From: Cyclobacteriaceae bacterium
GTDB taxonomy: Bacteria; Bacteroidota; Bacteroidia; Cytophagales; Cyclobacteriaceae
Direction: 5' to 3'
Assembly: GCA_019638395.1 (NCBI GenBank)
Contig: JAHBTX010000003.1
Coordinates: 1-64,000, forward strand
Length of the DNA: 64,000 bases
Shown here: one piece after another, positions 1-12,548 of the stretch
Layout: each line of letters starts with the position of its first letter
Position numbering within the stretch: the first letter of the stretch is position 1
Notes under the pieces: generated by a model
What the model was told of the DNA's origin: nothing
Seen by the model: only the letters and a program-made list of their open reading frames with translations
Database searches by the model: none
Translations under genes and position numbers: made by a program

Positions 1-51
1 CCGTGACCAAACTACATTTTGAAACATAAACTTTAAATTAACACCAAACCC

Positions 52-81
52 CCACATTGCATAAACATTTTGTTGTAGGCT
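52..81 (-). repeat. attC-like site, right half only (site of cassette 3)
   Basis: The core TGTTGTAGGC lies at 71-80, and the arm CCACATTGCATAAACA just left of it resembles the arm of the complete sites at 1614-1748 and 2216-2350. The partner arm would lie beyond the window. The sequence GTTGTAGGC plus GGCGCT here repeats, inverted, at the other end of the same cassette (1605-1623), and the stop codon of the adjoining gene lies eight bases inside the core. Confidence 0.55.
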
Positions 82-87
82 GGGCGC

Positions 88-1035
88 TTACCTGCTCTTA
101 ATTAATCTCTCTTTAGAAATCTTTTTACTTCCTTTTTTAATGTCCATATTCTCGGCACAAATTATATATTCAATAATAAGGTCTGTTGGTCCTTTTTTTT
201 CCTCAAATATTCCTGTTATACAATCAACGTTAAGTGTCGATTTAGGGAAAACCACAATATCTTGACCACCTGAATAGTTCAAATCATAATGAATATTATT
301 TTTTATGCTGATTAGTCCAGTTCTTCTGTTCCCATTTATTCCTTCGATTCCATAGGGAGATTGAGAGTACGGATTACTAAGTGTCAGTCCGATATATGGA
401 AACTTTGCAATAGTATTACTTTTGTTAACTATTGAAAATAGTATTTCAAATCTTAACATTCCGTCCCCTTGCCAGTCAACAGACTCGATTTTACTTATTT
501 GCAAATCTAAGGTTGGTCTTCTAGTTCTAGAAAACATATCAACTATATCAAAATGTTCTGCACGATAGAAACTGTCTCCACTTCTTTTGTAGTAATATTT
601 GTCAGCGAAATTGGCGATATGAGGACTGTTCTCGCTTTCGGGAATTATTGTTACTATATATCCTTTATCTACTGAAGATTCAATTTTCTTGCTCCTTACA
701 CCTTTGATGATTGGGGTTACAGCTTGTCCCTCAAGTCTGTTTAGTTTATTTAAGAAAGAGTTTAGTTGAGTTATTGGAGACAATTTGTTGGCGCAATCAA
801 TTCCGTCTTTGTTTGGTGATGCATTGACACCCCAAATTATGAGGCCGCCACTTGAATTTGCAAAGCCTGATAAGCATTTGGAAAAATTTCTTTTATCAAA
901 ATCTCTAGTCTCCTCTTTTTCATGCGGATGCACTACAGTCTTGAATTCGATATGTAAATTCTCCTCTTGTCGTTCCTTGATAAGATTTTCAATTCCTTCT
1001 TTATTTATTTGATTGAAATATTCAGTCAAGTCCAT
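88..1035 (-). CDS. AlbA_2 / Schlafen-like ATP- or nucleic-acid-binding domain protein (cassette gene)
   Basis: The 315-residue protein has, at residues 25-75, the pattern of the AlbA_2 (Schlafen AlbA-like) domain: an E-x-x-x-E-F-K start ('ENLHIEFKTV'), a cysteine/alanine helix, and 'FANSSGGLIIWGV'. A second part of the fold, ending 'YYYKRSGDSFYRA' near residues 147-160, closes the domain. The remaining C-terminal half is all-beta in appearance and I do not recognise it. AlbA_2 proteins are reported as putative DNA-binding regulators and as parts of phage-defence or nuclease systems, but nothing here fixes the role. It is the second gene of a two-gene cassette, seven bases downstream of the lipoprotein gene, and its stop codon sits next to the cassette's 3' recombination site. 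Start ATG at 1035. The gene is AT-rich relative to the chromosomal genes further right, as usual for cassette cargo. Confidence 0.75.
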   Translation of the reverse strand: MDLTEYFNQINKEGIENLIKERQEENLHIEFKTVVHPHEKEETRDFDKRNFSKCLSGFANSSGGLIIWGVNASPNKDGIDCANKLSPITQLNSFLNKLNRLEGQAVTPIIKGVRSKKIESSVDKGYIVTIIPESENSPHIANFADKYYYKRSGDSFYRAEHFDIVDMFSRTRRPTLDLQISKIESVDWQGDGMLRFEILFSIVNKSNTIAKFPYIGLTLSNPYSQSPYGIEGINGNRRTGLISIKNNIHYDLNYSGGQDIVVFPKSTLNVDCITGIFEEKKGPTDLIIEYIICAENMDIKKGSKKISKERLIKSR

Positions 1036-1042
1036 TCCTAAT

Positions 1043-1591
1043 TTATTTTTTTATAAATGCTGTCTTTGTCCAATTACCTTGCTGTGGAAACATTGATAAA
1101 GCAAAGGGTAACATGTATGTTCCAGGTAGATAGATATTATTAGTTGAACCTTCACTAATGCAATCAGCTGACCAAATTGGAATCTGTGATTTAGGACTAT
1201 AAGAATTTATTATTATGTTCCTTTTATACACCGTTGCCGAATAAGCCCTTTGTTGAGGCACATACTTTCCAGATTTTGGCTCATAAACTGTAATAGTCCT
1301 AGAGCCTGTTTCTTGTCCTGATTCCATACCAAACTTAACTTCAAAAATGAAGTCAGCACTGTCTATACTAGTTTCCTTCCAGGCCTTTTTTGAAAATTCC
1401 GTTTTGATTATGTTCAACAGGTTTGCTTCCATCAGTTTGTCAACTTGCAATGAGTCTGTCCTTAATGCATACTTTGCAAAACTCATAGAATCAAGTTTTA
1501 GATTTGGATCTTTTAGCGTTGAGACTTGATAAACAATCTTTGAACAGGATGTTGCTGTGAGAACTACGATTAGTAAAGTATAATATTTCAT
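1043..1591 (-). CDS. lipoprotein, DUF4136-like (cassette gene)
   Basis: The 182-residue product begins with a short hydrophobic signal segment ending in a lipobox-like 'TATSC' (Cys16), so it is probably lipid-anchored. The body ('LDSMSFAKYALRT', 'LLNIIKTEFSKKAWKETSIDSADFIFEVKF', then beta strands) resembles DUF4136-type lipoproteins, in which a conserved 'ADFxV' strand follows a helix. The assignment is by appearance only and the function is unknown. It is the first gene of cassette 3; the ATG at 1591 follows the recombination core by about 30 bases, and the downstream AlbA_2 gene follows after seven bases, so the two are probably co-transcribed from outside the cassette. Confidence 0.65.
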   Translation of the reverse strand: MKYYTLLIVVLTATSCSKIVYQVSTLKDPNLKLDSMSFAKYALRTDSLQVDKLMEANLLNIIKTEFSKKAWKETSIDSADFIFEVKFGMESGQETGSRTITVYEPKSGKYVPQQRAYSATVYKRNIIINSYSPKSQIPIWSADCISEGSTNNIYLPGTYMLPFALSMFPQQGNWTKTAFIKK

Positions 1592-1613
1592 AACTTATTT
1601 ATTTTAGCGCCTT

Positions 1614-1748
1614 GCCTACAACGTTTGTGTTTCTGCAGTGGTGCCTTTTCGAAGCCGCGTCCTGTCCCACGAAACTAAACGTTGAACGAAGATAAAACTT
1701 TAAACCAACCCGTCACGGCACCATTGCAGAAACATTTTGTTGTGGGAC
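1614..1748 (-). repeat. attC-like recombination site (between cassettes 2 and 3)
   Basis: The 135-bp site is bounded by GCCTACAACG (1614-1623) and GTTGTGGGAC (1739-1748). Inside it, TGTTTCTGCAGTGGTGCC can pair with GGCACCATTGCAGAAACA over 18 positions with one G-T wobble, leaving a central part of roughly 70 bases. The site differs from 2216-2350 at only about ten positions, all in the centre or just beside the cores. The size and long imperfect palindrome resemble attC sites; the core GTTGTRG deviates from GTTRRRY at the fifth base. Confidence 0.8.
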
Positions 1749-1751
1749 GTT

Positions 1752-2207
1752 TTAAATTCCACCCGTCTTTGTATTGAAATATTTAAACTTGTTTTTATCA
1801 CAGTCGAACTTGAATTGAACCGTCACCCAGTTTGAAAGTCCAAGGTTAATGCCTTTCCTTTTTCCTTTGTACTCTCCGAAATAAGGTGTGATGTTTATTT
1901 CAATCAAATCGTCTTTTGTCCGCGCGGGAAATATTTTAACGTGTCTTATTTTATTACCGTTCTTTTCATAAATCTCTTTTTGATTTTCCCAGGTAATTAT
2001 TGTCACCGATCGTTGTCCCACTAGTCGGGGTAATTTGTCGGTTATTCCGTTATTGTACTCAACGTATATCTCTTTTTCGTCTGGCATGTATGTGTCCAAG
2101 TAGTCGTTGTAGGATATAAGCGCTTGATAGTAAAGACTGGTCGAGTCGACCTGTCCAAAGCAGTCAACGTTCCACGTCAGCAATAATATTAGTAGTCCGT
2201 ATTTCAT
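1752..2207 (-). CDS. small secreted protein of unknown function (cassette gene)
   Basis: The ATG at 2207 gives a 151-residue protein with a signal peptide ('MKYGLLILLLTWNVDCFGQ'), followed by a mixed, polar domain ('YYQALISYNDYLDTYMPDEK', 'GQRSVTIITWENQKEIYEKN'). A GTG at 2222 extends the frame by five residues, but it lies inside the recombination core, so the ATG is preferred. I do not recognise the family. The protein is probably periplasmic or surface exposed. It is the only gene of cassette 2 (about 1622-2224), which leaves almost no non-coding DNA apart from the recombination site. Confidence 0.65.
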   Translation of the reverse strand: MKYGLLILLLTWNVDCFGQVDSTSLYYQALISYNDYLDTYMPDEKEIYVEYNNGITDKLPRLVGQRSVTIITWENQKEIYEKNGNKIRHVKIFPARTKDDLIEINITPYFGEYKGKRKGINLGLSNWVTVQFKFDCDKNKFKYFNTKTGGI

Positions 2208-2215
2208 TTTAAAAT

Positions 2216-2350
2216 GCCCCACAACGTTTGTGTTTCTGCAGTGGTGCCTTTTCGAAGCCGCGTCCTATCCCACGAAACCAAACCTTGAACGAAGATAAAA
2301 CTTAATACCAACTCGTCACGGCACCATTGCAGAAACATGCTGTTGTGGCC
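2216..2350 (-). repeat. attC-like recombination site (between cassettes 1 and 2)
   Basis: The site is bounded by GCCCCACAACG (2216-2226) and TGTTGTGGCC (2341-2350). The inner arms TGTTTCTGCAGTGGTGCC (2231-2248) and GGCACCATTGCAGAAACA (2320-2337) pair over 18 positions with one wobble. It has the same 135-bp length as the site at 1614-1748 and about 92% identity to it. The outermost bases next to each core differ between the two sites in the way the cassette-end rule predicts. Confidence 0.8.
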
Positions 2351-2465
2351 AGTTGGGTTTCGTCCGTCATCATCAGTCACTCTCCTATGATTTTGTCGGT
2401 CGTTAAATTTGTTGTCAGCGTGTTGTCAAAGAAACCCAATTCATTTATATTTTATTGAAGTCCAA

Positions 2466-3053
2466 TTAAAACCGATAACCTAATCCGAGTCGTATAGTGT
2501 TTCGTTTTCCATCATATATATCCAAGGCGAAGTCATTAATCTGTGGCAATAAACCATGAGAATATCGAAATTCAGATATTATTCTTTTGGTTAGTTCGTA
2601 TTGCATACCCATTTCAACTGAAACACCAAAATTATTGAAATCATAGATTTCATCGTCATTGTTTAAAACAAAGTCCAATTTTGGTCCAGCGGTAAGAAAT
2701 ATCTTTTTATGAATTAGATATTTTAAACGGAGCGGAATCTCAATGAAATGGTAGTCGTCCGTGAAAGAAAAAAGAATCTCATTTTCAAATCTCCATTTTT
2801 TATTTAACTCATTTTCAATAAAGAATGATACGTATAATTCAAGTCCAATGAACCCTGTTGCTGTCCCATCTAATTCCTTTCCATTTATTACACTTCTATT
2901 TAACCCTGCCTTAAGTCCGAAAGGCGTCAACTTTTTTTCATTTTGAGCTGTCACGGTTAAGTTAATTGACATCAATAAAATGAAAGTCGAAATTATCCTC
3001 AGTAGCGGAAAATGTCTCGGGTTATGAATGCGTCTCCTGTCAATTGTTCTCAT
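2466..3053 (-). CDS. outer-membrane beta-barrel protein, PorT-like (cassette gene)
   Basis: The protein has about 195 residues from the ATG at 3053; an in-frame TTG nine bases upstream is less likely. An N-terminal charged stretch and hydrophobic segment ('LLRIISTFILLMSINLTVTAQ') form a signal peptide ending in the 'xAQ' typical of Bacteroidota. Alternating hydrophobic strands follow ('PFGLKAGLNRSVI', 'GFIGLELYVSFFIE', 'IPLRLKYLIHKKIFLTAGPK', 'NTIRLGLGYRF'), and the protein ends in aromatic Phe, as outer-membrane barrels do. It fits the outer-membrane protein beta-barrel (PorT/OMP_b-brl_2) type. It is the sole gene of cassette 1, nearest the recombinase. About 115 non-coding bases (2351-2465) lie between its stop and the recombination site; I see no gene there. 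Function unknown. Confidence 0.7.
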   Translation of the reverse strand: MRTIDRRRIHNPRHFPLLRIISTFILLMSINLTVTAQNEKKLTPFGLKAGLNRSVINGKELDGTATGFIGLELYVSFFIENELNKKWRFENEILFSFTDDYHFIEIPLRLKYLIHKKIFLTAGPKLDFVLNNDDEIYDFNNFGVSVEMGMQYELTKRIISEFRYSHGLLPQINDFALDIYDGKRNTIRLGLGYRF

Positions 3054-3097
3054 TTTTATCAATTTACAACGTCACTGTCCACGGAGCCAACCCAATT

Positions 3098-3140
3098 GGC
3101 CACAACGCTTGGCTATAAGCGACAGAGTCGCTTATACGCC
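3098..3140 (-). other. attI-like junction with a hairpin over the recombinase stop codon
   Basis: The core GGCCACAACG (3098-3107) adjoins a strong hairpin: GGCTATAAGCGAC (3111-3123), loop AGA, then GTCGCTTATA-C-GCC (3127-3140). Thirteen pairs form with a single bulged C. The TAA stop of the recombinase (3132-3134) lies inside the right arm. There is no T-tract, so it is not an ordinary terminator. By position it is the platform next to which the newest cassette is found. A second ACAACG core (3066-3071) lies 36 bases away. Confidence 0.5.
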
Positions 3141-4247
3141 CTTATTGGAATCTAAGATAAGCCCTTGCGTTAAATAATCCAACGGACTTGTAAGTTTATC
3201 AAACCCCCGTTTTGTTATATGCGCGTATCGTTCTGTGGTACGGCTGCTCTCATGGCCTAGCAAGGTCTGGATGTAGCGTAAATCGGTACCTCGCTCCAAC
3301 AAATGGGTGGCAAAACTATGCCGAAGCGTGTGTGCGCTTACCCGCCTTGTTATTCCGGCTATTTTACAATACCGATGAATAAAACAGTTAACACTTCTTG
3401 ATGAATAGCGATTGCCATCAGGGCCTTCGAATAACCATACTTTGGGTTGGTATAATGCCAGGTAATGCTTCAGGTAGTCAAGAGCGAGTCGGCTTAGCAG
3501 TGTAATCCTATCTTTGCGTCCTTTGCCGCTGCGTATATAAATTATCATGCGGTATTCGTCCACATCTTTCCATGTCAGGTTAAGTAATTCACTTATACGC
3601 AAACCGGCCGAATACAACAAAAACATAATGCACCGGTGCTTTATGTTAGTGCTTGCCCACAAAAGCTTTTGCATTTCCTCTTCCGATAGCACCTCGGGCA
3701 AAATCTTGTCCTTGGCGGGTCTGTCGGTATAATAGATCGTGCGCTCGCCTTTATGCAATTGTTCCAGGTAAAATTTTATCGCATTAATTGCAGTGTTTTG
3801 GGTTGATACCGATACTTGCCGTTCTTCAACCAGGTACATCATATAAGCGTCAATCGTTTCACGGCTAATGTCTGTTATTTGTTTTGGATGGATATAGGCC
3901 ATAAACAATCGCATCTGGCTTTCATAGTTTTTAATTGTGCTTTCGCTGTAGCGAAGCCTAACCAGGCACTCGCGGTAGCCTTCAGGTAAAGGTATCTGTT
4001 CCGGGGTGGTTTTGGGCTGTACGTTGTTAAATAATTGCGGCATGCGTACCAGGTCAACTTCCGATAGCATTTGGAATAATAAATCCAGTGTGGCAGGTGC
4101 GTAAGGCACATACCAACAACCATGCGTTTTACTGTATTTTCGATTCGGGAAACTTCGTACCAACGCGTTAGCCTGCGCATTCAAATTTCGAATTGCAATA
4201 CAATATGTATCGCGATGCCATAAAGGAGAAAGTTCAATACTTTTCAT
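3132..4247 (-). CDS. tyrosine recombinase of the cassette array
   Basis: The 371-residue enzyme carries the full tyrosine recombinase set: Arg217 ('SAGLRISELL'), Lys242 ('GKGRKDR'), His306 and Arg309 ('HTLRH'), His332 ('LLGHESS') and the nucleophile Tyr341 ('TERYAH'). A SAM-like core-binding domain covers about residues 85-165. An extra N-terminal domain of about 60 residues ('ALVRSFPNRKYSKTHGCWYV') precedes it. Between the Lys and the H-x-x-R block I see no long insertion like that used by IntI integrases to bind attC, so the protein reads as a XerC/D-like member. The association with cassettes shown here, not the protein alone, suggests integron-type activity. The gene reads into the array, and its stop lies within the attI-like hairpin. 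ATG at 4247 was chosen as the first start. Confidence 0.85.
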   Translation of the reverse strand: MKSIELSPLWHRDTYCIAIRNLNAQANALVRSFPNRKYSKTHGCWYVPYAPATLDLLFQMLSEVDLVRMPQLFNNVQPKTTPEQIPLPEGYRECLVRLRYSESTIKNYESQMRLFMAYIHPKQITDISRETIDAYMMYLVEERQVSVSTQNTAINAIKFYLEQLHKGERTIYYTDRPAKDKILPEVLSEEEMQKLLWASTNIKHRCIMFLLYSAGLRISELLNLTWKDVDEYRMIIYIRSGKGRKDRITLLSRLALDYLKHYLALYQPKVWLFEGPDGNRYSSRSVNCFIHRYCKIAGITRRVSAHTLRHSFATHLLERGTDLRYIQTLLGHESSRTTERYAHITKRGFDKLTSPLDYLTQGLILDSNKGV

Positions 4248-4291
4248 GGTGCAATAATGAAAAGCAAAAAGAGTATTAGTCGTATATTAAC

Positions 4292-4321
4292 CGTTTATAA
4301 TCGTTTATAATCGGATATAAT
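4292..4321 (-). promoter_or_regulatory. three tandem 10-bp repeats upstream of the recombinase
   Basis: CGTTTATAAT occurs twice head to tail (4292-4301, 4302-4311), followed by CGGATATAAT (4312-4321). The period is one helical turn and the block lies 45-74 bases upstream of the recombinase ATG. A flanking AACCGT (4289-4294) and ACGGTT (4330-4335) form a loose inverted pair. This would suit a repeated regulator- or recombinase-binding site, but no experiment or known motif supports a specific protein. Confidence 0.4.
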
Positions 4322-4339
4322 TATCGGAGACGGTTATTT

Positions 4340-5116
4340 TTAGCCCTTATCTGCTTTGCGGATATATAACACATAAGCCAATGTAACGAAAGCAATAGAA
4401 TAACCGATCGCCAATCCATGAATGTCAGGTATCTCCTGAGTCAACCCACCCTGGCTCGTAAGCTGATCAAAAGCCGGATACAAGTATGGTAGTAGATAAG
4501 AGTATTCCCAGCTAAGCACCAAGGTACTTAGTAACCAAAGAAATATACCTGCACCCACTGGCACCAAAAAATTTTTGAACTGAATGCTTAAAAAGAATTG
4601 CAAGGCCACAATGGGCATACAACCGATAAATATTTTAAGATTATAATGCATAAGATCGCCCCACGGCACTGCTGTTTTTGGAAAAGGTACTTCACTAAAT
4701 AAAATGGGTGGTACGTAAGCCGACAAATAAACAAACAGATTAAACAACAGAAACAGTTGTGTCAACATAGTAAGTTGTACGGCAAACTTCGAAACGAAAA
4801 TAGTAGTTAAGGTCTGCGGACTGGTATGTACCTGTTTCCAGGTGTTATTTTTAAATTCTAATTGTGCAAGCAAACTGGTAGCTAACACAATGCCCAGGGG
4901 TAACAACATAAACGACATTGGTTGCCAGCATTGGTTCCAGTACATTTTCCAAAACGTTTCGGCTGCATATTGCACCGGTAACTTATCGCGGTTTTTAATA
5001 GCAATAAGTAAAGTAATTACAGGTGTAAATACTGCACCTATAAACACCAACCAAACCGATAGGCTTCCTTTTTTCTTTATCCACTCACTTTTAAAGGCAG
5101 GTATAATGGCTATCAT
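4340..5116 (-). CDS. ABC-2 type transporter permease
   Basis: The 258-residue protein has about six hydrophobic segments, including 'LVFIGAVFTPVITLLIAI', 'SFMLLPLGIVLATSLLA' and 'AIGYSIAFVTLAYVLYI', separated by short loops, and starts with 'AFKSEWIKKKGSLSVWL', a layout common in ABC-2 permeases of the lantibiotic-immunity/bacitracin-efflux class. Its gene follows the ATPase gene after 12 bases, so together they should form one exporter in the cytoplasmic membrane. The substrate cannot be inferred. The stop lies about 90 bases upstream of the recombinase start. Confidence 0.8.
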   Translation of the reverse strand: MIAIIPAFKSEWIKKKGSLSVWLVFIGAVFTPVITLLIAIKNRDKLPVQYAAETFWKMYWNQCWQPMSFMLLPLGIVLATSLLAQLEFKNNTWKQVHTSPQTLTTIFVSKFAVQLTMLTQLFLLFNLFVYLSAYVPPILFSEVPFPKTAVPWGDLMHYNLKIFIGCMPIVALQFFLSIQFKNFLVPVGAGIFLWLLSTLVLSWEYSYLLPYLYPAFDQLTSQGGLTQEIPDIHGLAIGYSIAFVTLAYVLYIRKADKG

Positions 5117-5128
5117 ATTCTGTTTCTG

Positions 5129-6037
5129 TTAAGCAGGTTGTTTAATCATTTCCATAAATACTGTTTCAAGATCGTTTTGGCGGGGAGCCATGCAATACAC
5201 GTTTATCGATTCAAGCACCAACATGCGGTTAATGCCTGCTAATTGCTCGCGCGAAAGCGCAGGTAATTCAAGATTCCCGTTTATTAGCTGTGTGGTAATT
5301 CCTTCGCGCGAAAGCAAAATGTGAGCACGATCATTATCACTTGTATCAAGCATAACGGCTGCCTGTTGCTGCAGTTTCATCAATGCCGGCAGCTGGCCCT
5401 GAAACATTAATTTCCCTTTATTAATAACCCCTACATCGGTAACTAATTTTTCAATTTCGGCCAATAAATGGCTGGATACAATAATGGTAATACCGTGCTG
5501 TTGATTCAGAGTACGCAGCAATTCGCGCATTTCTATTATACCATTCGGGTCAAGTCCATTGGTGGGTTCGTCTAACACCAATAACATAGGTTCGTGCAAA
5601 AGCGCTACGGCAATGCCGAGGCGTTGTTTCATCCCTAACGAAAACTTGCTCACCTTTTTAGAGCCGGTATGAAGGCCTACCAGTTTTAGTACCTCGTGCA
5701 GGCGTGGCGTGGAAACGCTGTAGATGGGCTGCCATACTCTCAGGTTTTCAAGAGCGCTTAAATGGCCATACAGCGAAGGTGATTCAATAAGCGAACCTGT
5801 CTTCTTTAAAATCTCAACCCTATTGGATGCAAGCGATTTTTGTAAAACAGCAACTTCACCTGCTTGTTTGCGCAATAATCCAAGTATAAGTTTTAGCGTA
5901 GTAGTTTTACCAGCACCATTCGGCCCCAAAAAACCATATATACTTTGAGCGGGCACATTCAGATTTATATTATTAACAACAATTTCACTTCCGAAACGAT
6001 GCGTGAGGTTTTGGGTTTCAACCAGAAAATTTGCCAT
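5129..6037 (-). CDS. ABC transporter ATP-binding protein
   Basis: The 302-residue ATPase has Walker A 'GPNGAGKT' (residues 38-45), an LSGGQ-type signature 'FSLGMKQRL' (about 133-141), Walker B 'LLVLDEPTNGLDPNG' and the switch histidine in 'IIVSSHLL'. The C-terminal 80 residues are a small extra domain, as in BcrA/CcmA-like exporters. It energises export through the adjacent permease. The ATG at 6037 is the natural start ('MANFLVETQNLTHRFG'). Confidence 0.9.
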   Translation of the reverse strand: MANFLVETQNLTHRFGSEIVVNNINLNVPAQSIYGFLGPNGAGKTTTLKLILGLLRKQAGEVAVLQKSLASNRVEILKKTGSLIESPSLYGHLSALENLRVWQPIYSVSTPRLHEVLKLVGLHTGSKKVSKFSLGMKQRLGIAVALLHEPMLLVLDEPTNGLDPNGIIEMRELLRTLNQQHGITIIVSSHLLAEIEKLVTDVGVINKGKLMFQGQLPALMKLQQQAAVMLDTSDNDRAHILLSREGITTQLINGNLELPALSREQLAGINRMLVLESINVYCMAPRQNDLETVFMEMIKQPA

Positions 6038-6180
6038 GCAGGTTTTGTTTGAGGCATGACGTTAAGCAACAGCAGATGTTACACACAATGTTAAAATACC
6101 TTATACACAACCGATTATTGGTTTGGAATTTAAATTGAGCCACAAACAAGCGCAACATGAATATGGGTGTACCCTCAAAC

Positions 6181-6211
6181 AAAAAAAACGGGGCCCGTAC
6201 AACAGACCCCG
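6181..6211 (-). terminator. rho-independent terminator of recQ
   Basis: Read on the minus strand, CGGGGTC (6211-6205) pairs with GGCCCCG (6195-6189) with one G-T pair, and eight T residues follow (6188-6181). It lies 25 bases beyond the recQ stop. Confidence 0.85.
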
Positions 6212-6235
6212 CAGAGATAAATTCTATTTCTAAAA

Positions 6236-8431
6236 TTAATTCGCGTATTCGCTCAAAAACTTCACGCGCATTAGTCGCAGATTATCTTCGGTAAAATCCG
6301 TATCTTCATTTTTTAGTGCATCTACAGCATCTTCAATACTGTCCGTCTCCGATTCTAAAAAATAATCGTATATCTGTTGTTGTTTATCTTCATCTAAAAC
6401 AGAATCGATGTAATAATCCAGGTTTAACTTGGTGCCGGAATAACAGATATTTTCAATCTCAGTCAATAGCTCATCGAAGGTAATGCTTTTCGACTCGGCA
6501 ATTTCGTCTAACTCTACTTTTCGGTCAATTTGTTGAATAATGAAAATTTTAATTTTTGATTTGTTAACAGACGATTTCACTACGATATCTGAAGCTGTTT
6601 CGATGTCGTTTTCGTCCACATAAGTTTGAATTAAATCCAGAAACTCTTTTCCAAACTTATTTACTTTACCCATGCCCACACCGTTTACCGATGCCAATTC
6701 TTCTTTGGTAGTAGGGTAGGTGGTTGCCATTTCTTCCAATGACGGATCCTGGAAGATTACATACGGTGGCAAGTCTTTTTCTTTGGCAACTTTTTTACGC
6801 AGTGCCTTCAGCATTTCAAACAACTTTTCGTCATACGATTTGTTGCTGGCTGCCGGCCGTTCTATCGATTCTTCTTCATCGCCTTCGGTTGTAAAATCAT
6901 GGTCGCGGGCTAATTCTATCGGATGGGGTTTCTTTAAGAAGTTATGTCCTTTGGTGGTAATTTTTAGTACCCCAATGTTTTCAATATCTTTTTCAAGGTA
7001 CTGGTAAATAAGTGCCTGGCGGATTACCGATTTCCAGAAGTCGGCATCTTGTAAATCGCCCTTTCCATAAACAGCCAGACTAAAATGGCCGTAACTTTTT
7101 ACGTATTCATCTTCAGTGCCTCGTATTACATTTACCAGGTGGCTTAATGTAAAACGTTCGTTGGTTTGTTTAGCGGCTTGCAAGGCAAGTGTTACATACT
7201 CGGTTCCGTCAAAGCGCTCGCGTGGGTTGGTGCAGTTATCGCACATGCCGCAATTGGCTTCGGTATATTCTTCACCAAAGTAGTGCAGCAGTTGTTTGCG
7301 CCTGCACACGGGGCTTTCGGCATAAAACTCCATCTCTTGCAAAAGCACCCGTGCATTTTCACGCTCCTGCACGGCTTTGTCTTTATTAAATTTTTCGAGT
7401 TTGTTCAGGTCGTTGTGGCTGTAAAACATCAGGCAATGTCCTTCTAAGCCATCGCGGCCACTGCGGCCGGTTTCCTGGTAATAGCCCTCCAGCGATTTGG
7501 GTACATCGTAATGTACTACAAACCGCACATCGGGTTTATCTATCCCCATTCCAAAGGCAATGGTAGCAACTATTATGTCAACCTCTTCATTTAAAAAGTC
7601 GTCCTGATTTTTCATGCGCACGTCCGGATCTAACCCGGCATGGTACGGTGCAGCTTTAAAACCATTTACGTTAATCAGTTGTGCAATCTCCTCTACTTTT
7701 TTCCGGCTCAGGCAATAGATAATGCCCGACTTACCTTTGTGTTCTTTTAAAAATCGAATGAGTTGTTTCTTGGTTTCTTTTTTGGGGCGTACTTCGTAAA
7801 ATAAATTTTTTCGGTTAAAGGAAGAGATAAACACATCGGCCTCTTCCATTTGCAGGTTCTTCTGTATATCCAACTGCACCTTGGGTGTGGCAGTAGCCGT
7901 AAGCGCAATCACGTTCATATCGCCCAATTGCGCAATCATAGTTTTTATTTTGCGATACTCCGGCCTGAAATCGTGCCCCCATTCCGAGATACAGTGAGCT
8001 TCGTCAATAGCCACAAACGAAACTTTTACTTTTTGCAGAAACTCAATATTTTCTTCTTTGTTGAGCGATTCGGGTGCTACATATAAAAGTTTTACAAGGC
8101 CCGATACACAGTCTTTCTTAAGTCTTGTAATTTCGCCTTTGCTAAGTGTGGAGTTAAGAAAACGTGCATGAATACCGTAGGCATTAAGTTGATCTACCTG
8201 ATTTTTCATTAACGCTATAAGGGGTGAGATAACAATTGCTAAACCATCTTTAACCATGGCCGGCAATTGGTAACACAACGACTTACCTGCACCCGTAGGC
8301 ATAATTACGAAAGTATTTCGCCCACCCAGTATGTTTTTAATTACTGCTTCCTGGTTGCCCCGAAAATTTCCGTATCCGAATATTTCCTTGAGTTTTGCCT
8401 TCAATTCACTTTTCTCTTCTGCCACTAACAT
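6236..8431 (-). CDS. recQ: ATP-dependent DNA helicase RecQ
   Basis: The 731-residue protein is a 3'-5' SF2 helicase of recombination repair. Visible features in order are 'GYGNFRGNQEAVI' (motif 0), Walker A 'MPTGAGKS' (44-51), DEAH box 'AIDEAHCISEWGHDFRP' (from 141), 'ALTATA', helicase motifs V/VI ('ATIAFGMGIDKPDVRFV', 'YQETGRSGRDG'), the RecQ zinc-binding cysteines ('CRRKQLLHYFG', 'CGMCDNC'), a winged-helix region and an HRDC domain (about 530-610). An acidic C-terminal tail of about 120 residues extends beyond the HRDC domain; such tails occur in Bacteroidota RecQ. It is divergent from kdsD. ATG at 8431 is chosen; the first residues are poorly conserved. Confidence 0.95.
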   Translation of the reverse strand: MLVAEEKSELKAKLKEIFGYGNFRGNQEAVIKNILGGRNTFVIMPTGAGKSLCYQLPAMVKDGLAIVISPLIALMKNQVDQLNAYGIHARFLNSTLSKGEITRLKKDCVSGLVKLLYVAPESLNKEENIEFLQKVKVSFVAIDEAHCISEWGHDFRPEYRKIKTMIAQLGDMNVIALTATATPKVQLDIQKNLQMEEADVFISSFNRKNLFYEVRPKKETKKQLIRFLKEHKGKSGIIYCLSRKKVEEIAQLINVNGFKAAPYHAGLDPDVRMKNQDDFLNEEVDIIVATIAFGMGIDKPDVRFVVHYDVPKSLEGYYQETGRSGRDGLEGHCLMFYSHNDLNKLEKFNKDKAVQERENARVLLQEMEFYAESPVCRRKQLLHYFGEEYTEANCGMCDNCTNPRERFDGTEYVTLALQAAKQTNERFTLSHLVNVIRGTEDEYVKSYGHFSLAVYGKGDLQDADFWKSVIRQALIYQYLEKDIENIGVLKITTKGHNFLKKPHPIELARDHDFTTEGDEEESIERPAASNKSYDEKLFEMLKALRKKVAKEKDLPPYVIFQDPSLEEMATTYPTTKEELASVNGVGMGKVNKFGKEFLDLIQTYVDENDIETASDIVVKSSVNKSKIKIFIIQQIDRKVELDEIAESKSITFDELLTEIENICYSGTKLNLDYYIDSVLDEDKQQQIYDYFLESETDSIEDAVDALKNEDTDFTEDNLRLMRVKFLSEYAN

Positions 8432-8459
8432 GGTATCGCTTATAAAATTTTGATTTACT

Positions 8460-8467
8460 TATCTTTG
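8460..8467 (+). promoter_or_regulatory. candidate -7 element of the kdsD promoter
   Basis: TATCTTTG fits the Bacteroidota -7 consensus TAnnTTTG and lies 24 bases upstream of the kdsD start. I do not find a TTTG at the matching -33 position, so the promoter is only partly supported. Confidence 0.45.
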
Positions 8468-8491
8468 AACTTTCGTTAACTGTTTCAACCA

Positions 8492-9460
8492 TTGAATATA
8501 ACAAAAAATATTTCACAAATCGCTAAAGCTGTACTAATAAATGAGGCTAAGGCAGTAGAAAATCTTACTAATTATATCGACAACGATTTCGAGGCGTGCG
8601 TAAGGGAAATCATTCAATGTAAGGGCCGGGTTGTCCTAACGGGCATTGGTAAAAGTGCAATCATCGCCAGTAAAATAGTAGCCACCCTTAACTCAACGGG
8701 TACTCCGGCTTTGTTTATGCACGCTGCCGATGCCATCCATGGAGATCTGGGTATGATTCAAACCAACGACATTGTTATTTGCCTTTCCAAGAGTGGAAAT
8801 ACCCCCGAAATAAAGGTGTTGGTTCCTTTGCTAAAGCGAAGAGGTTCTAAATTGGTTGCGCTGGTAAGTAATAAAAACTCTTACCTGGCTCAGCATGCCG
8901 ATTATGTTTTAAATGCCACTATTGGCGAAGAGGCTTGCCCCAATAACCTGGCCCCCACTACCAGTACCACTGCACACCTGGCCATGGGCGATGCCCTGGC
9001 CATTTGCTTACTGGAACTACGCGATTTTTCGAGCGAAGATTTTGCCCAATACCATCCGGGTGGTGCATTGGGTAAACAACTTTATCTTAAAGTAGAAGAT
9101 GTAATTTCCAACAATCAACTTCCGCGGGTTAAACCCGATACGCTGTTGCGCGATGTGATTATCGAAATTTCATCTAAGCGATTAGGTGCAACGGCTGTTG
9201 TAAACGATGCGTCTGATCTGATCGGAATTATTACCGATGGCGACTTACGAAGGATGCTGCAAAAAGAAAGTAATATTGCAACAATAAAAGCAGCTGATAT
9301 TATGACGCGCACGCCTAAAACTATTGATAAAACTGAGTTTGCGGTAAAGGCTTTGCAGATGATGCAGGAAAACAGCATTTCGCAATTGGTGGTAGTACAT
9401 GGCAAGCAGGTAGCAGGTTTTATTCACCTGCACGATTTATTAAAAGAAGGAATTGTATAA
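8492..9460 (+). CDS. kdsD: D-arabinose 5-phosphate isomerase, KdsD/KpsF family
   Basis: The 322-residue enzyme interconverts ribulose 5-phosphate and arabinose 5-phosphate, the first step towards the KDO sugar of lipopolysaccharide. The SIS domain (about 35-180) shows 'TGIGKSAIIASKIVATL', 'SKSGNTPEI' and the family block 'ACPNNLAPTTSTT'; two CBS motifs follow (about 205-320, 'GIITDGDLRRML'). The frame has a TAA at 8477-8479 and no ATG until about residue 74, so TTG at 8492 is the likely start. manC follows after 22 bases, so the pair probably form one operon supplying sugars for surface glycans. Confidence 0.9.
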   Translation: MNITKNISQIAKAVLINEAKAVENLTNYIDNDFEACVREIIQCKGRVVLTGIGKSAIIASKIVATLNSTGTPALFMHAADAIHGDLGMIQTNDIVICLSKSGNTPEIKVLVPLLKRRGSKLVALVSNKNSYLAQHADYVLNATIGEEACPNNLAPTTSTTAHLAMGDALAICLLELRDFSSEDFAQYHPGGALGKQLYLKVEDVISNNQLPRVKPDTLLRDVIIEISSKRLGATAVVNDASDLIGIITDGDLRRMLQKESNIATIKAADIMTRTPKTIDKTEFAVKALQMMQENSISQLVVVHGKQVAGFIHLHDLLKEGIV

Positions 9461-9482
9461 TTAAAAATATCCCAGCGGGATT

Positions 9483-10559
9483 ATGAATAAAAATCTTTAC
9501 GTAGTGCTGATGGCCGGGGGTGTAGGCACCCGTTTTTGGCCGTATAGCCGCAACAGCAGGCCCAAACAATTTTTAGATGTATTGGGAACCGGAAAAACGT
9601 TGTTGCAATCAAGTTACGAGCGGTTTTTGCCGCTATGTCCACCTGAAAATATTTTGGTTGTTACCAACGAAGAACACGAGGCCATTACACGGCAACAACT
9701 ACCGGGGCTTGCACCGCACCAGGTGCTTACCGAACCTATGCGCAAAAACACAGCTCCGTGTATTGCCTTTGCCAGCCACAAAATCAACAAATTAAATCCC
9801 CATGCAGTGGTAGTGGTTAGCCCTTCCGATCATTTGATACTGAACGAAGCCGATTTTCAACAAACCATTTTAAAGTGTTTGGAAAAAGCACAAGATCAGG
9901 ACAAACTTATTACACTGGGAATTAAACCCACACGCCCCGAAACCGGCTATGGATACATTCAATACCTGGATGGCAAACATGCGCTGAAGAAAGTAAAAAC
10001 CTTTACTGAAAAACCCGAATTAGCATTGGCCAAAACTTTTTTACAAAGTGGCGACTTTCTGTGGAATGCCGGAATTTTTGTGTGGGGAGTGAAAGCAATA
10101 CTACAGGCATTTCAAAAACATTTGTCCGAAATGTCAGAAGTTTTTGATGAAGCCTCGTTGCAGTTTAATACACCATCTGAAAAAGAAGCGCTGCAGAGCG
10201 CGTACGCTCAAACCAAAAATATTTCCATCGATTATGGCATCATGGAAAAGGCCGACAATGTGTATGTGTGGCTTAGTAATTTTGCGTGGTCCGACTTGGG
10301 CTCTTGGAATTCGCTATACGATAACTCTGTTAAAGACGAAAACAACAACGCTATAAGTGGTGAAGCGCTTATTTACGAAACACGCAATAGCGTAATAAAA
10401 GGCCCGAAAGATAAATTGATTGTGGCACAGGGGCTAAACGGCTACCTGATTGGTGCATTCGATAACGTATTTATTGTGTGCGAAAAGGAAAAAGAGGAAT
10501 TATTCCGCAGGTTTGTTAACGATTTAAAAGCAAAAAGTAACGGCAACGATTATCTGTAG
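9483..10559 (+). CDS. manC: mannose-1-phosphate guanylyltransferase
   Basis: The enzyme makes GDP-mannose from mannose 1-phosphate and GTP in the cytoplasm. The nucleotidyltransferase signature 'MAGGVGTRFWPYSRNSRPKQ' starts at residue 10, followed by 'EPMRKNTAPCIAFA', 'SPSDHLI' and 'FTEKP...FLWNAGIFVW'. At 358 residues it is the short monofunctional form without the phosphomannose isomerase domain of the roughly 470-residue enzymes. It is probably co-transcribed with kdsD. The convergent rlmB lies 40 bases away, where AATAGC-N7-GCTATT could form a weak hairpin without a T-tract. Confidence 0.93.
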   Translation: MNKNLYVVLMAGGVGTRFWPYSRNSRPKQFLDVLGTGKTLLQSSYERFLPLCPPENILVVTNEEHEAITRQQLPGLAPHQVLTEPMRKNTAPCIAFASHKINKLNPHAVVVVSPSDHLILNEADFQQTILKCLEKAQDQDKLITLGIKPTRPETGYGYIQYLDGKHALKKVKTFTEKPELALAKTFLQSGDFLWNAGIFVWGVKAILQAFQKHLSEMSEVFDEASLQFNTPSEKEALQSAYAQTKNISIDYGIMEKADNVYVWLSNFAWSDLGSWNSLYDNSVKDENNNAISGEALIYETRNSVIKGPKDKLIVAQGLNGYLIGAFDNVFIVCEKEKEELFRRFVNDLKAKSNGNDYL

Positions 10560-10599
10560 CATGTAAATAGCTTATCGCGCTATTGTGTGGATGTGATCT

Positions 10600-11340
10600 C
10601 TAAGGCTTTCGCTTTTGCCGAACTGCCTCATAAATTGAAATGCCTGCAGCCACCGAAACATTGAGCGAACTTATTTTTCCACTCATCGGGATTTTAGCCA
10701 GTCGGTCGGCATCTTTTAGCAACTGAGGCGAAATGCCGTCTTCTTCTGAACCAACCATCAACGCAAGTGGTGTGTTCAGATCCATATCGTACAACAGATC
10801 GCTGGCTTTTTCGGTACAGGCAATAATCTGAATTCCATTCTCTTTTAAAAACCGAATCGCCCTCTTTATATCTTTTTCCCGGCATACCGGCAAATGACTC
10901 AACGCCCCGGCCGAAGTTTTCATAGCATCGCCTGTAATAGGTGCATTGCCGCTATCGCCCATAACAATGGCATCAAGCCCGGCACACTCGGCCGTGCGCG
11001 CCAATGCACCAAAGTTGCGTACATCGGTTACCCGATCTACAATTAAGAGAAACGGCTCGCGTCCTTCCTGGTAAGCTTTATCTATTATTCCTTCCAGGTT
11101 AGCATAACTTACTGTTGCCAACAAGCAAATTACACCCTGGTGATTTTTTGTTGAAAGCCGGTTGAGCTTTGCCTGCGGCACAAACGTAAACGGAACACCT
11201 TTGCTTTTGGCTACCTGAATCAATTCTTTGATCAGATCATTATTCAAACCAGCCTGTACAAAAACTTTTTCAATTTCGCGCCCTGCACGAATGGCTTCCA
11301 TTACAGCCCGGGTTCCAAAAATCATTTCCGATTTGTCCAT
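10600..11340 (-). CDS. rlmB: 23S rRNA 2'-O-methyltransferase, RlmB/TrmH (SpoU) family
   Basis: The 246-residue protein has an N-terminal substrate-binding domain ('IFGTRAVMEAIRAGREIEKV', residues 7-26) and a SPOUT methyltransferase domain with the three SpoU motifs: 'DRVTDVRNFGALARTAECAG', 'LALMVGSEEDGIS' and 'IPMSGKISSLNVSVAAGI'. Members methylate G2251 of 23S rRNA; some relatives act on tRNA, so the target is inferred from overall length and the N-terminal domain. The start at 11340 is the family start ('MDKSEMIFGTRAV'). Confidence 0.88.
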   Translation of the reverse strand: MDKSEMIFGTRAVMEAIRAGREIEKVFVQAGLNNDLIKELIQVAKSKGVPFTFVPQAKLNRLSTKNHQGVICLLATVSYANLEGIIDKAYQEGREPFLLIVDRVTDVRNFGALARTAECAGLDAIVMGDSGNAPITGDAMKTSAGALSHLPVCREKDIKRAIRFLKENGIQIIACTEKASDLLYDMDLNTPLALMVGSEEDGISPQLLKDADRLAKIPMSGKISSLNVSVAAGISIYEAVRQKRKP

Positions 11341-11378
11341 GAAAAAAATTTAGGCAAAGGTATCATTTTGTAGCACTG

Positions 11379-12548
11379 TTAAAACCGGCTCTTTCGCCAC
11401 AGGTCAATGGTGCTAAACCAGGTTTCAGAAAAGCGCTTGTCGCGCAGCAGCACATAGTGGTGGGGATCATACACGCTGCCCCGCTTTACAAATGTAAACC
11501 GGGTGCGTGAGCTTTTGTAATACCAGGTTTCGGTTCCATCATTCACACTTACTTCATCGGGCAAACCAAAAATAAGATAAACCATGCCTTTATCTGTTTT
11601 CCAACCGTGCTTGTACGATGTAAAATAAATATTAGCCAACTCCACTCTTCTGAAATAACTGCGCATAAAATTTTTAGCCCGATCGCGATCGCCCGTTATA
11701 TCCAATATTATTTTATCAAACTTTGCTTTGTCGGTGCCGGCTCGCATCAACTCAGTATATTCTTCGCCTGTGGTAACATATAATAAGGGTTGCGCCAAAT
11801 CGGTAATTGATGAGAACTTCGGATAGATATCGTTAACGCCCAAATAGGCAAAGCCTTCAGCTGCATTGGTATCGCGCTGAATTAAATACACACCTTGTTT
11901 TTGTGGTGCAAAGGTTGCCCCTGCAGCCAACCGAAAAGTAGAATCATAAAACATAAACCGATCAGTGGCTTCAGCTTGTTCGGCAAATGGCGGTGCGGCC
12001 GGCTTAAAGTCGTTGTAATAAACCGATACAAACAAGGGCGTGGAGCCTTCTGGTTTTACCTGATAGGAATTTTTTATAGCAATAAACTTGCTGTTGACTT
12101 TATTATTAACATTTTCCAGCCACCCGATTTGCGGGTATTTCGGATCAATCTGCCGAAAGTAGGTCCACGTGGTTTTACTTTCTGTATTGGTTACCTTTAC
12201 TACCAGCAGCCACGCTGTGGCGGAGGGCGAAAATATCCAGCTACCTTGTTTTTGTTTTTCGGTTTCGGAAATAATTGTGGGCGATTCTGTGAGCAGGTTT
12301 CCATCGCGCTGGGTGTACGTTTCTCTGCGTTCCCACACAATGGAGTATTTCGATATAGGTTGTTGCCGGGCATCGATGGTATAATCTACCACAACCCGAT
12401 CGGTTAAACGGGCAATAGAAAAGGTTACAGCAATTTCAGCATCGGGGTTGTACCACTCTCTGAAGTTTAAACCGGTAATAGGCTGTGTAAGTGCAATAAC
12501 AGGTGCTAAAAAAAACAGGTATAAAAAAAGTTTCTTCATCTCGCTCAT
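11379..12548 (-). CDS. GWxTD domain-containing secreted protein
   Basis: The 389-residue protein has a signal peptide ('KLFLYLFFLAPVIALTQP') and, in its last 120 residues, the GWxTD block: 'FMRSYFRRVELANIYF', 'HGWKTDKGMVYLIFGLPDEV', 'TETWYY'. This domain is common in Bacteroidota and Acidobacteriota, usually at the end of exported proteins, and its function is not established. Its stop is 38 bases from the rlmB start on the same strand, so the two may be co-transcribed. ATG at 12548 or 12539 ('MKKLFLYL') are both possible. Confidence 0.85.
   Translation of the reverse strand: MSEMKKLFLYLFFLAPVIALTQPITGLNFREWYNPDAEIAVTFSIARLTDRVVVDYTIDARQQPISKYSIVWERRETYTQRDGNLLTESPTIISETEKQKQGSWIFSPSATAWLLVVKVTNTESKTTWTYFRQIDPKYPQIGWLENVNNKVNSKFIAIKNSYQVKPEGSTPLFVSVYYNDFKPAAPPFAEQAEATDRFMFYDSTFRLAAGATFAPQKQGVYLIQRDTNAAEGFAYLGVNDIYPKFSSITDLAQPLLYVTTGEEYTELMRAGTDKAKFDKIILDITGDRDRAKNFMRSYFRRVELANIYFTSYKHGWKTDKGMVYLIFGLPDEVSVNDGTETWYYKSSRTRFTFVKRGSVYDPHHYVLLRDKRFSETWFSTIDLWRKSRF

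Follow-up and report, generated by a model that had tools for sequence, protein, structure and literature searches.

A probable chromosomal integron-type cassette system headed by a Xer-like, non-IntI recombinase in a Cyclobacteriaceae bacterium

Contig JAHBTX010000003.1, 958 kb long, belongs to the 4.78-Mb draft genome of a Cyclobacteriaceae bacterium; its first 64 kb, hereafter the window, carry at positions 1–4247 the head of a gene-cassette array: a tyrosine recombinase, followed by an attI-like site and then by cassettes that each end in a folded site of 130 nucleotides (nt). We read this locus as part of a chromosomal integron-type gene-capture system run by an integrase other than IntI, and give this reading a probability of roughly 85%. 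It is carried by the anatomy of the array, a site pairing that is conserved without conservation of sequence, a border rule by which the start of each cassette mirrors its own end, the relocation of whole cassettes, the synteny of sites and recombinase, and the missing IntI insert. The locus was not filed as an IntI integron: extrahelical bases and use of the attI-like site aside, the structural features tested fit that class, but the enzyme does not.

A cassette array at the contig edge

The recombinase gene (positions 4247–3132, minus strand) encodes 371 amino acids (aa) comprising a small N-terminal alpha/beta domain, a core-binding domain and a catalytic domain, as assigned from Pfam, NCBIfam and the predicted structure. 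The attI-like site (3100–3140, minus strand), recognized in the sequence, consists of a palindrome with 10-bp arms (3114–3123 and 3127–3136) followed on the sense strand by GTTGTGG (3106–3100). Cassette 1 (2225–3105) contains an outer-membrane beta-barrel gene (3062–2466; Pfam OMP_b-brl) and its own complete 130-nt site (2219–2348), with 26-nt inverted arms at 3081–3106 and 2342–2367. Cassette 2 (1622–2224) holds a 156-aa open reading frame (ORF; 2222–1752) without a Pfam or NCBIfam match, again with a complete 130-nt site (1616–1745). Cassette 3 (1–1621) carries two genes assigned by Pfam, one of the DUF4136 family (1591–1043) and one with a Schlafen/AlbA_2 domain (1035–88), and is cut by the contig end, window position 1 being base 1 of the contig; the start of this cassette, just after site 2, is mirrored in the stretch immediately before the site at 1–78, of which only the first 78 nt remain. 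Sites 1 and 2 fold and score 137.0 and 142.1 bits with a covariance model of which both are training sequences, and the third site, cut off at its 3′ side, scores 54.0 bits. All cassettes, sites and genes downstream of the recombinase lie on its own (minus) strand, bearing out the original prediction of a recombinase followed by codirectional gene cassettes.

That prediction had further described the sites as near-identical, foldable and 135 bp long. Sites 1 and 2 are indeed 93% identical over 131 nt and foldable (z-scores against shuffles of −5.2 and −4.1 for the two strands of one site, and −2.9 and −2.0 for the other), and only the length had to be corrected, to 130 nt. The proposed fixed core GTTGTRG did not stand: across the genome the box is GTTRNNN and differs from cassette to cassette, GTTGTRG being just the form present in the window's cassettes. 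A scan with the fixed core returned only 3 sites, each on both strands, and structure-based searches were therefore used instead. An Rfam search of positions 1–12000 gave no match above the gathering score.

The covariance model, built from 20 sites of one genome, was run on the window's own genome, where 150 of 1872 candidates were scored; among these it found 45 sites at E ≤ 1 (44 with E < 0.001) on 11 contigs, including the two complete sites of the window, which are thus not chance structures. Other, mostly small contigs carrying the same sites and small genes continue the array. One contig (C4, 10,367 bases, locus L047) has a site at each end and none detected between them; this gap may reflect an exceptionally long cassette, inserted DNA or sites that the search missed.

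The sites show an attC-type fold with R and L stems and an unpaired spacer. The inner (L) stem comprises 17 pairs, 96.2% paired over 20 sites, with compensatory changes at 13 of the 17; none of 500 shuffles reached this level of pairing, and no slid version came close. A mismatch often breaks the stem, as A-C on the sense strand and as G-T on the other. The outer (R) stem varies in sequence yet is paired within each cassette, and this pairing without conserved sequence, together with the compensation in the L stem, makes structure a likelier basis for recognition than sequence. Some sites are ~170 nt long and contain an additional inner hairpin.

Borders, pairing and movement of the cassettes

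Twelve of the 94 + 104 covariance-model matches were dropped (6 cut by contig ends, 1 internal fragment, one 225-nt match and 4 weak opposite-strand mirrors of stronger matches), leaving 186 sites in 41 loci; once the four mirrors are removed, the sites occupy one strand per locus. The own genome and the relatives together yielded 125 cassettes of 100–8000 nt in which both boxes were found.

Movement as circles predicts that the box following a site is part of the cassette after it, and that it matches the far end of that cassette rather than the site that it adjoins. The variable bases 4–7 of the start are the perfect reverse complement of the cassette's own end in 111 of the 125 cassettes, compared with 13 of 125 for the neighbor's start at the same site. 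Own pairing was better in 114 cassettes and worse in 6, and the mean match was 12.58 of 21 positions for own ends versus 6.97 for the same site, with a maximum of 7.19 in 2000 random re-pairings. The match reaches approximately position 18, with a constant break at positions 10–11: at position 11 the start is A in 124 of 125 cassettes and the mirrored end is mostly G, with matches in 0 of 125, and A against G corresponds to a G-T wobble on the bottom strand and to A-C on the top one. The R stem has a bulge in 22 cassettes. In two class 1 integron cassettes compared as a control, the start–end match is 11 and 12 nt long and uninterrupted; the rule itself is therefore classical, and the interruption is what differs. 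The longest ORF of at least 50 aa lies on the strand of the site in 110 cassettes and on the opposite strand in 5, the remaining 10 having none; genes thus do stand between the repeats, largely codirectional and each unit with its own site, and the integron logic originally proposed for the locus is sustained.

Whole cassettes have also relocated. In one complete genome, a 1-kb cassette is present in 99.8% identical copies at ~2.78 and ~3.83 Mb (about 1.05 Mb apart). A tandem cassette pair is likewise 99.8% identical, and in another array a cassette with an identical 348-nt core occurs twice. In the distant and the tandem pair the identity stops at an AAC/GTT border on both sides; in the 348-nt pair it does so at the 3′ end, the 5′ end being flanked by a similar hairpin. 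Two species (L100 in G007 and L227 in G026) share a fourth pair, a 1.9-kb cassette that is ~80% identical, both borders included. Duplicate cassettes within an array are seen at loci L092 and L218, with cores 99.8% and 100% identical.

Palindromic intergenic repeats are common in bacteria, and the sites might be ordinary repeats of this kind without a cassette function. We give this view practically no credence, given that the 186 sites keep to one strand in each of the 41 loci, are separated by codirectional genes and have a recombinase heading the array. Homologous recombination, acting on near-identical repeats in the gene gaps, could in turn have built and shuffled the array, and both the similarity of the hairpins within the genome (up to 94% to the query site) and the one shared cassette with a different hairpin speak for it. 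It cannot, however, explain why the start of each cassette mirrors its own end, nor the AAC/GTT borders between unrelated flanking hairpins in the distant 1-kb and tandem pairs, and we consider it very improbable. Both explanations were rejected on the border rule, the AAC/GTT borders and the one-strand sites with genes between them.

Under the integron-type reading, genes would be carried as cassettes, each with a terminal palindromic site, and the adjacent Xer-like tyrosine recombinase would recombine these sites with each other and with the attI-like site downstream of its own gene. In an excised circle, the site would be rebuilt from the two ends of the cassette, giving a hairpin stem (L) of ~17 bp and, from the start and end of the cassette, an outer stem (R) that can reach ~18 bp. 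Exchange would probably occur between the first base and TT of the R/TT motif: in plasmid arrays of B. ovatus and P. distasonis the box is mostly ATT and its mirror GTT, a pattern suggesting that the first base is left in place. New cassettes would enter beside the recombinase, in its direction of transcription. The attI-like palindrome is the candidate entry point by its position and mirrored border in the sequence: in the window, its GTT lies 25 nt beyond the recombinase stop codon and agrees with the end of cassette 1 at 14 of 15 positions, and 11 of 20 loci have a GTT 25–130 nt after the stop in which the end of the first cassette detected is mirrored at no fewer than 12 of 15 positions.

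In this mechanism the window recombinase is the likely catalyst, a folded single strand, probably the bottom one as in classical integrons, its likely substrate, and a circle the likely intermediate. Among the sites rebuilt as in circles, the bottom strand folds more stably in 99 of 125 and the top strand in 25, and in the array form the corresponding numbers are 86 and 37. Outer-stem wobbles number 164 on the bottom strand, 103 of them at position 11, and 37 on the top strand. In 117 of 125 cassettes the site is more stable as rebuilt in the circle than as it stands in the array, by a mean of 10 kcal/mol on the bottom strand, from which we infer a bias toward the insertion of circles.

The recombinase and its distribution

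The window enzyme matches PF00589 (141.6 bits) and PF13495 (55.7 bits) in Pfam. With the NCBIfam model XerA_Arch it scores 208.7 bits, below the cut-off of 220, and with the integron integrase model TIGR02249 182.6 bits, below the cut-off of 265; all seven family members scored fall below this latter cut-off. The putative catalytic residues R217, K242, H306, R309, H332 and Y341 are invariant in 19 aligned sequences. The predicted structure (pLDDT, the predicted local distance difference test, 87.3) has no helix at the position of the IntI insert, a region of 66 aa in IntI4 and 23 aa in the window enzyme, which has ~43 residues fewer between the second and third catalytic boxes; this gap is common to the homologues aligned with two IntI sequences. 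The closest solved structure by sequence is XerA (5hxy, 125 bits).

In the phylogenetic tree, all 19 of 19 IntI sequences form one clade (support 100), and the 28 rows of the window family lie on the other side (99 versus IntI plus Xer); 11 distant homologues were placed in no group, and one sequence labelled IntI (L248_intI_7) grouped, and was counted, with Xer. The window enzyme is neither a member of the IntI clade nor a carrier of its additional (I2) domain, in line with the original call of a Xer-like, non-IntI enzyme. A joint clade of IntI and the window family was not rejected by the approximately unbiased (AU) test (p-AU 0.287), so that a sister relation of the two is possible. The family by itself is not already a clade against the 11 distant homologues, and a tree holding it together was not rejected either (p-AU 0.646).

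The locus could also be a conventional IntI integron with an integrase that has diverged or lost the insert. The joint clade would allow this; the top Foldseek match of the predicted structure is IntI4, narrowly, in a near tie with XerA; and sites and borders follow the classical pattern, with matches of 11–12 bp in the two class 1 cassettes. The separation of the 28 family rows from a complete IntI clade, the absence of the insert from the aligned family members and the low TIGR02249 scores of all seven that were scored stand against it, and we regard such an integrase as improbable.

Recombinase and sites tend to occur together. Among 58 relatives, with thresholds of E ≤ 1e-40 for the recombinase and E ≤ 0.001 for the sites, 26 have both, 5 the recombinase only, 14 the sites only and 13 neither (Fisher p 0.011, uncorrected for kinship). 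Eleven of 17 recombinase loci in the relatives have sites, every one downstream on the strand of the recombinase, as in the window. In 80 named loci with recombinase homologues, 15 site matches were found in 8 loci (Arundinibacter, Aquiflexum, four Flavobacterium, Algibacter and one Bacteroidales metagenome-assembled genome), again all downstream on the recombinase's strand. Homologues beside similar arrays, the finding on which the original prediction had staked itself, are thus present in many genomes, and its claim of an integrase codirectional with its cassettes extends to them.

A finder independent of site sequence added an array with 57-nt sites in Rufibacter and one in a Flavobacteriaceae strain, and the Rufibacter and Algibacter arrays that it delineated obey the border rule. 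Overall, Cytophagales, Flavobacteriales and Bacteroidales contain homologues that are followed by codirectional arrays; no clear array was seen at the archaeal, firmicute and spirochaete homologues scanned. Codirectional arrays headed by homologues are also found on plasmids of Rufibacter, Pontibacter, Parabacteroides and Bacteroides. A generic hairpin finder proved noisy (76 candidate pairs, 17 with an own match of 4/4 and 2 with a same-site match) and failed on short Bacteroidales sites, and a mirrored-border finder gave 7, 1, 3, 1 and 1 hits at five plasmid loci versus 2, 3, 0, 0 and 0 in one shuffle each; a border test between gene gaps was therefore used. With one IS110 gene of the Pontibacter array left out, adjacent gaps of the four plasmid arrays scored at least 8 in 9 of 29 cases, versus 12 of 262 for other gap pairs (means 5.28 and 1.40).

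An IntI above the cut-off is present in 57 of 198 genomes of the phylum, one of them in the window's own class and none in its own order or family, and its own genome has no IntI above the cut-off. Two crude search routines for classical attC sites, applied around 20 IntI loci from other Bacteroidota, detected none or at most 2 per locus and failed as a control; the scarcity of classical sites beside these IntI genes may reflect weak finders.

Several observations weigh against the integron-type reading, in addition to the Foldseek result. The border rule is broken by 10 of the 125 cassettes, although 8 of these exceed 1.2 kb and perhaps contain missed sites. The L100/L227 pair has unrelated hairpins, which simple capture does not account for; these hairpins may have been exchanged apart from the genes. 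No extrahelical bases are evident in the L stem, where a mismatch takes their place. In the relatives, 6 of 17 recombinase loci have no site: four end within 520 nt downstream, and two long loci of G039 have none. Likewise, 72 of the 80 named loci are without a site match, the model having been built from one genome. Finally, 14 of the 58 relatives have sites without a close recombinase homologue and 5 show the reverse, and the own genome encodes further Xer-like recombinases (36% and 27% identity) that could act.

The last two points would fit a scenario in which another enzyme, either the host XerC/XerD or an IntI acting in trans, moves the cassettes and the adjacent recombinase is a bystander; host Xer enzymes are described as using a folded phage site (PMC4792948). 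The distribution of IntI given above offers little to such a supply in trans, the order of recombinase and then array is repeated in many lineages, plasmids included, and the enzyme is found at the head of the array wherever both are seen. We therefore consider a bystander role unlikely, and favor the adjacent recombinase as the integrase of the array.

Cargo, known systems and significance

Family searches of the 172 cassette ORFs covered the own genome's 30 and 3 more from the window, as well as 124 of the 142 from relatives, with 25 of 40, 25 of 105 and 25 of 187 families listed. The 33 own-genome ORFs, representing only part of the array, matched 22 Pfam families, none bearing the name of an immunity family. 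They include HepT-like, nucleotidyltransferase, Gp49-like, DUF3368 and UPF0175 proteins, which we take to be toxin–antitoxin families, as well as glyoxalase, outer-membrane proteins and an IS110 transposase. One own-genome cassette, between two sites (L044:5746-8606), holds a Zorya II set of ZorA, ZorB split over two ORFs, and ZorE. Among the matches listed for cassettes of the relatives are methylases, NotI and MmeI proteins and candidate defence genes. IS110-family transposases lie in or beside arrays in one own-genome cassette ORF and at L255 (10868–12223) and L253 (14677–15735); IS110 relatives that target integron sites exist.

A short homologue of the window recombinase named TnpF, 51% identical over query residues 113–359, immediately precedes tet(X3) on plasmids from Acinetobacter and an uncultured bacterium (L251 6070–8240, FJ012881.1; L252 2967–5117, NZ_CP104735.1). 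Between TnpF and tet(X3) is a palindrome followed by GTT, resembling the attI of the window recombinase family, and after tet(X3) comes a stretch resembling the first arm of a site; the border finder detected no clear mirrored border at these loci. It is possible that tet(X) was formerly a cassette in an integron of this kind.

The window system shares with classical integrons the codirectional cassettes, an attI-like site adjoining the integrase gene, palindromic sites built of R and L stems, an unpaired spacer, a variable terminal part and a GTTR box (PMC2727003), and also the cassette-own borders seen in the two class 1 cassettes compared. It differs in that its integrase lacks the IntI insert, falls outside the IntI clade and reads with the cassettes, whereas the classical one reads against them. 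The outer match, reaching ~18 nt with the break at 10–11, also differs from the shorter, unbroken one of the class 1 examples, and the L stem is without evident extrahelical bases, which in classical sites determine strand choice (PMC2727003). An integrase that reads toward attI, with the cassettes, is also described for the integrons of Treponema (PMC3607928), as the original prediction had noted for spirochaetes; there, unlike here, it is a true IntI. XerA is the nearest solved structure by sequence, but the described role of XerA, XerC and XerD is chromosome-dimer resolution (PMC8371274), and members of the window family possess an additional N-terminal domain and stand at the head of cassette arrays. 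Phages of the CTXphi type that exploit Xer resemble the window system in a folded single-strand site without extrahelical bases and in an enzyme without the I2 domain (PMC4792948); they have neither cassettes nor an integrase of their own.

The closest parallel is the recombinase-associated acquired interbacterial defence (rAID) of gut Bacteroidales, for which a predicted tyrosine recombinase, co-oriented short genes and conserved intergenic motifs are described (PMC12247911), in likeness to the window system. Homologues 42–43% identical to the window enzyme head plasmid arrays of B. ovatus and P. distasonis with Tdi1, SUKH and PoNi-like immunity genes, which would tie rAID to the window family, and these arrays tend to obey the same border rule. 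Unlike rAID, the window genome carries broad cargo rather than type VI secretion system (T6SS) immunity genes and has sites mostly 130–170 nt long, and the box of the Bacteroidales arrays is mostly ATT. A Bacteroidales subset of the window system thus seems to have been published already as rAID. The word "integron" is absent from PMC12247911, and within the open-licence papers searched we found no description of the window class as an integron. The IntegronFinder 2.0 report mentions one complete integron for Bacteroidetes proper, that of Salinibacter.

With some reserve, we lean towards a broader view in which Bacteroidia hold a second, sequence-distinct integron class, whose I2-less Xer-like integrase would recombine hairpins that mimic duplex DNA. 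Such a class would comprise large chromosomal arrays with phage-defence cargo as well as plasmid arrays, would include rAID as a specialised branch in the gut, and may be the source from which Acinetobacter received tet(X). The system allows a test of whether recombination of folded sites requires the I2 domain, or whether an enzyme of Xer type is enough if the hairpin mimics duplex DNA. It also offers a possible route by which rAID arrays acquire immunity genes. Integron surveys seek IntI, and a class without IntI would hide from them a pool of mobile genes for defence and possibly resistance.

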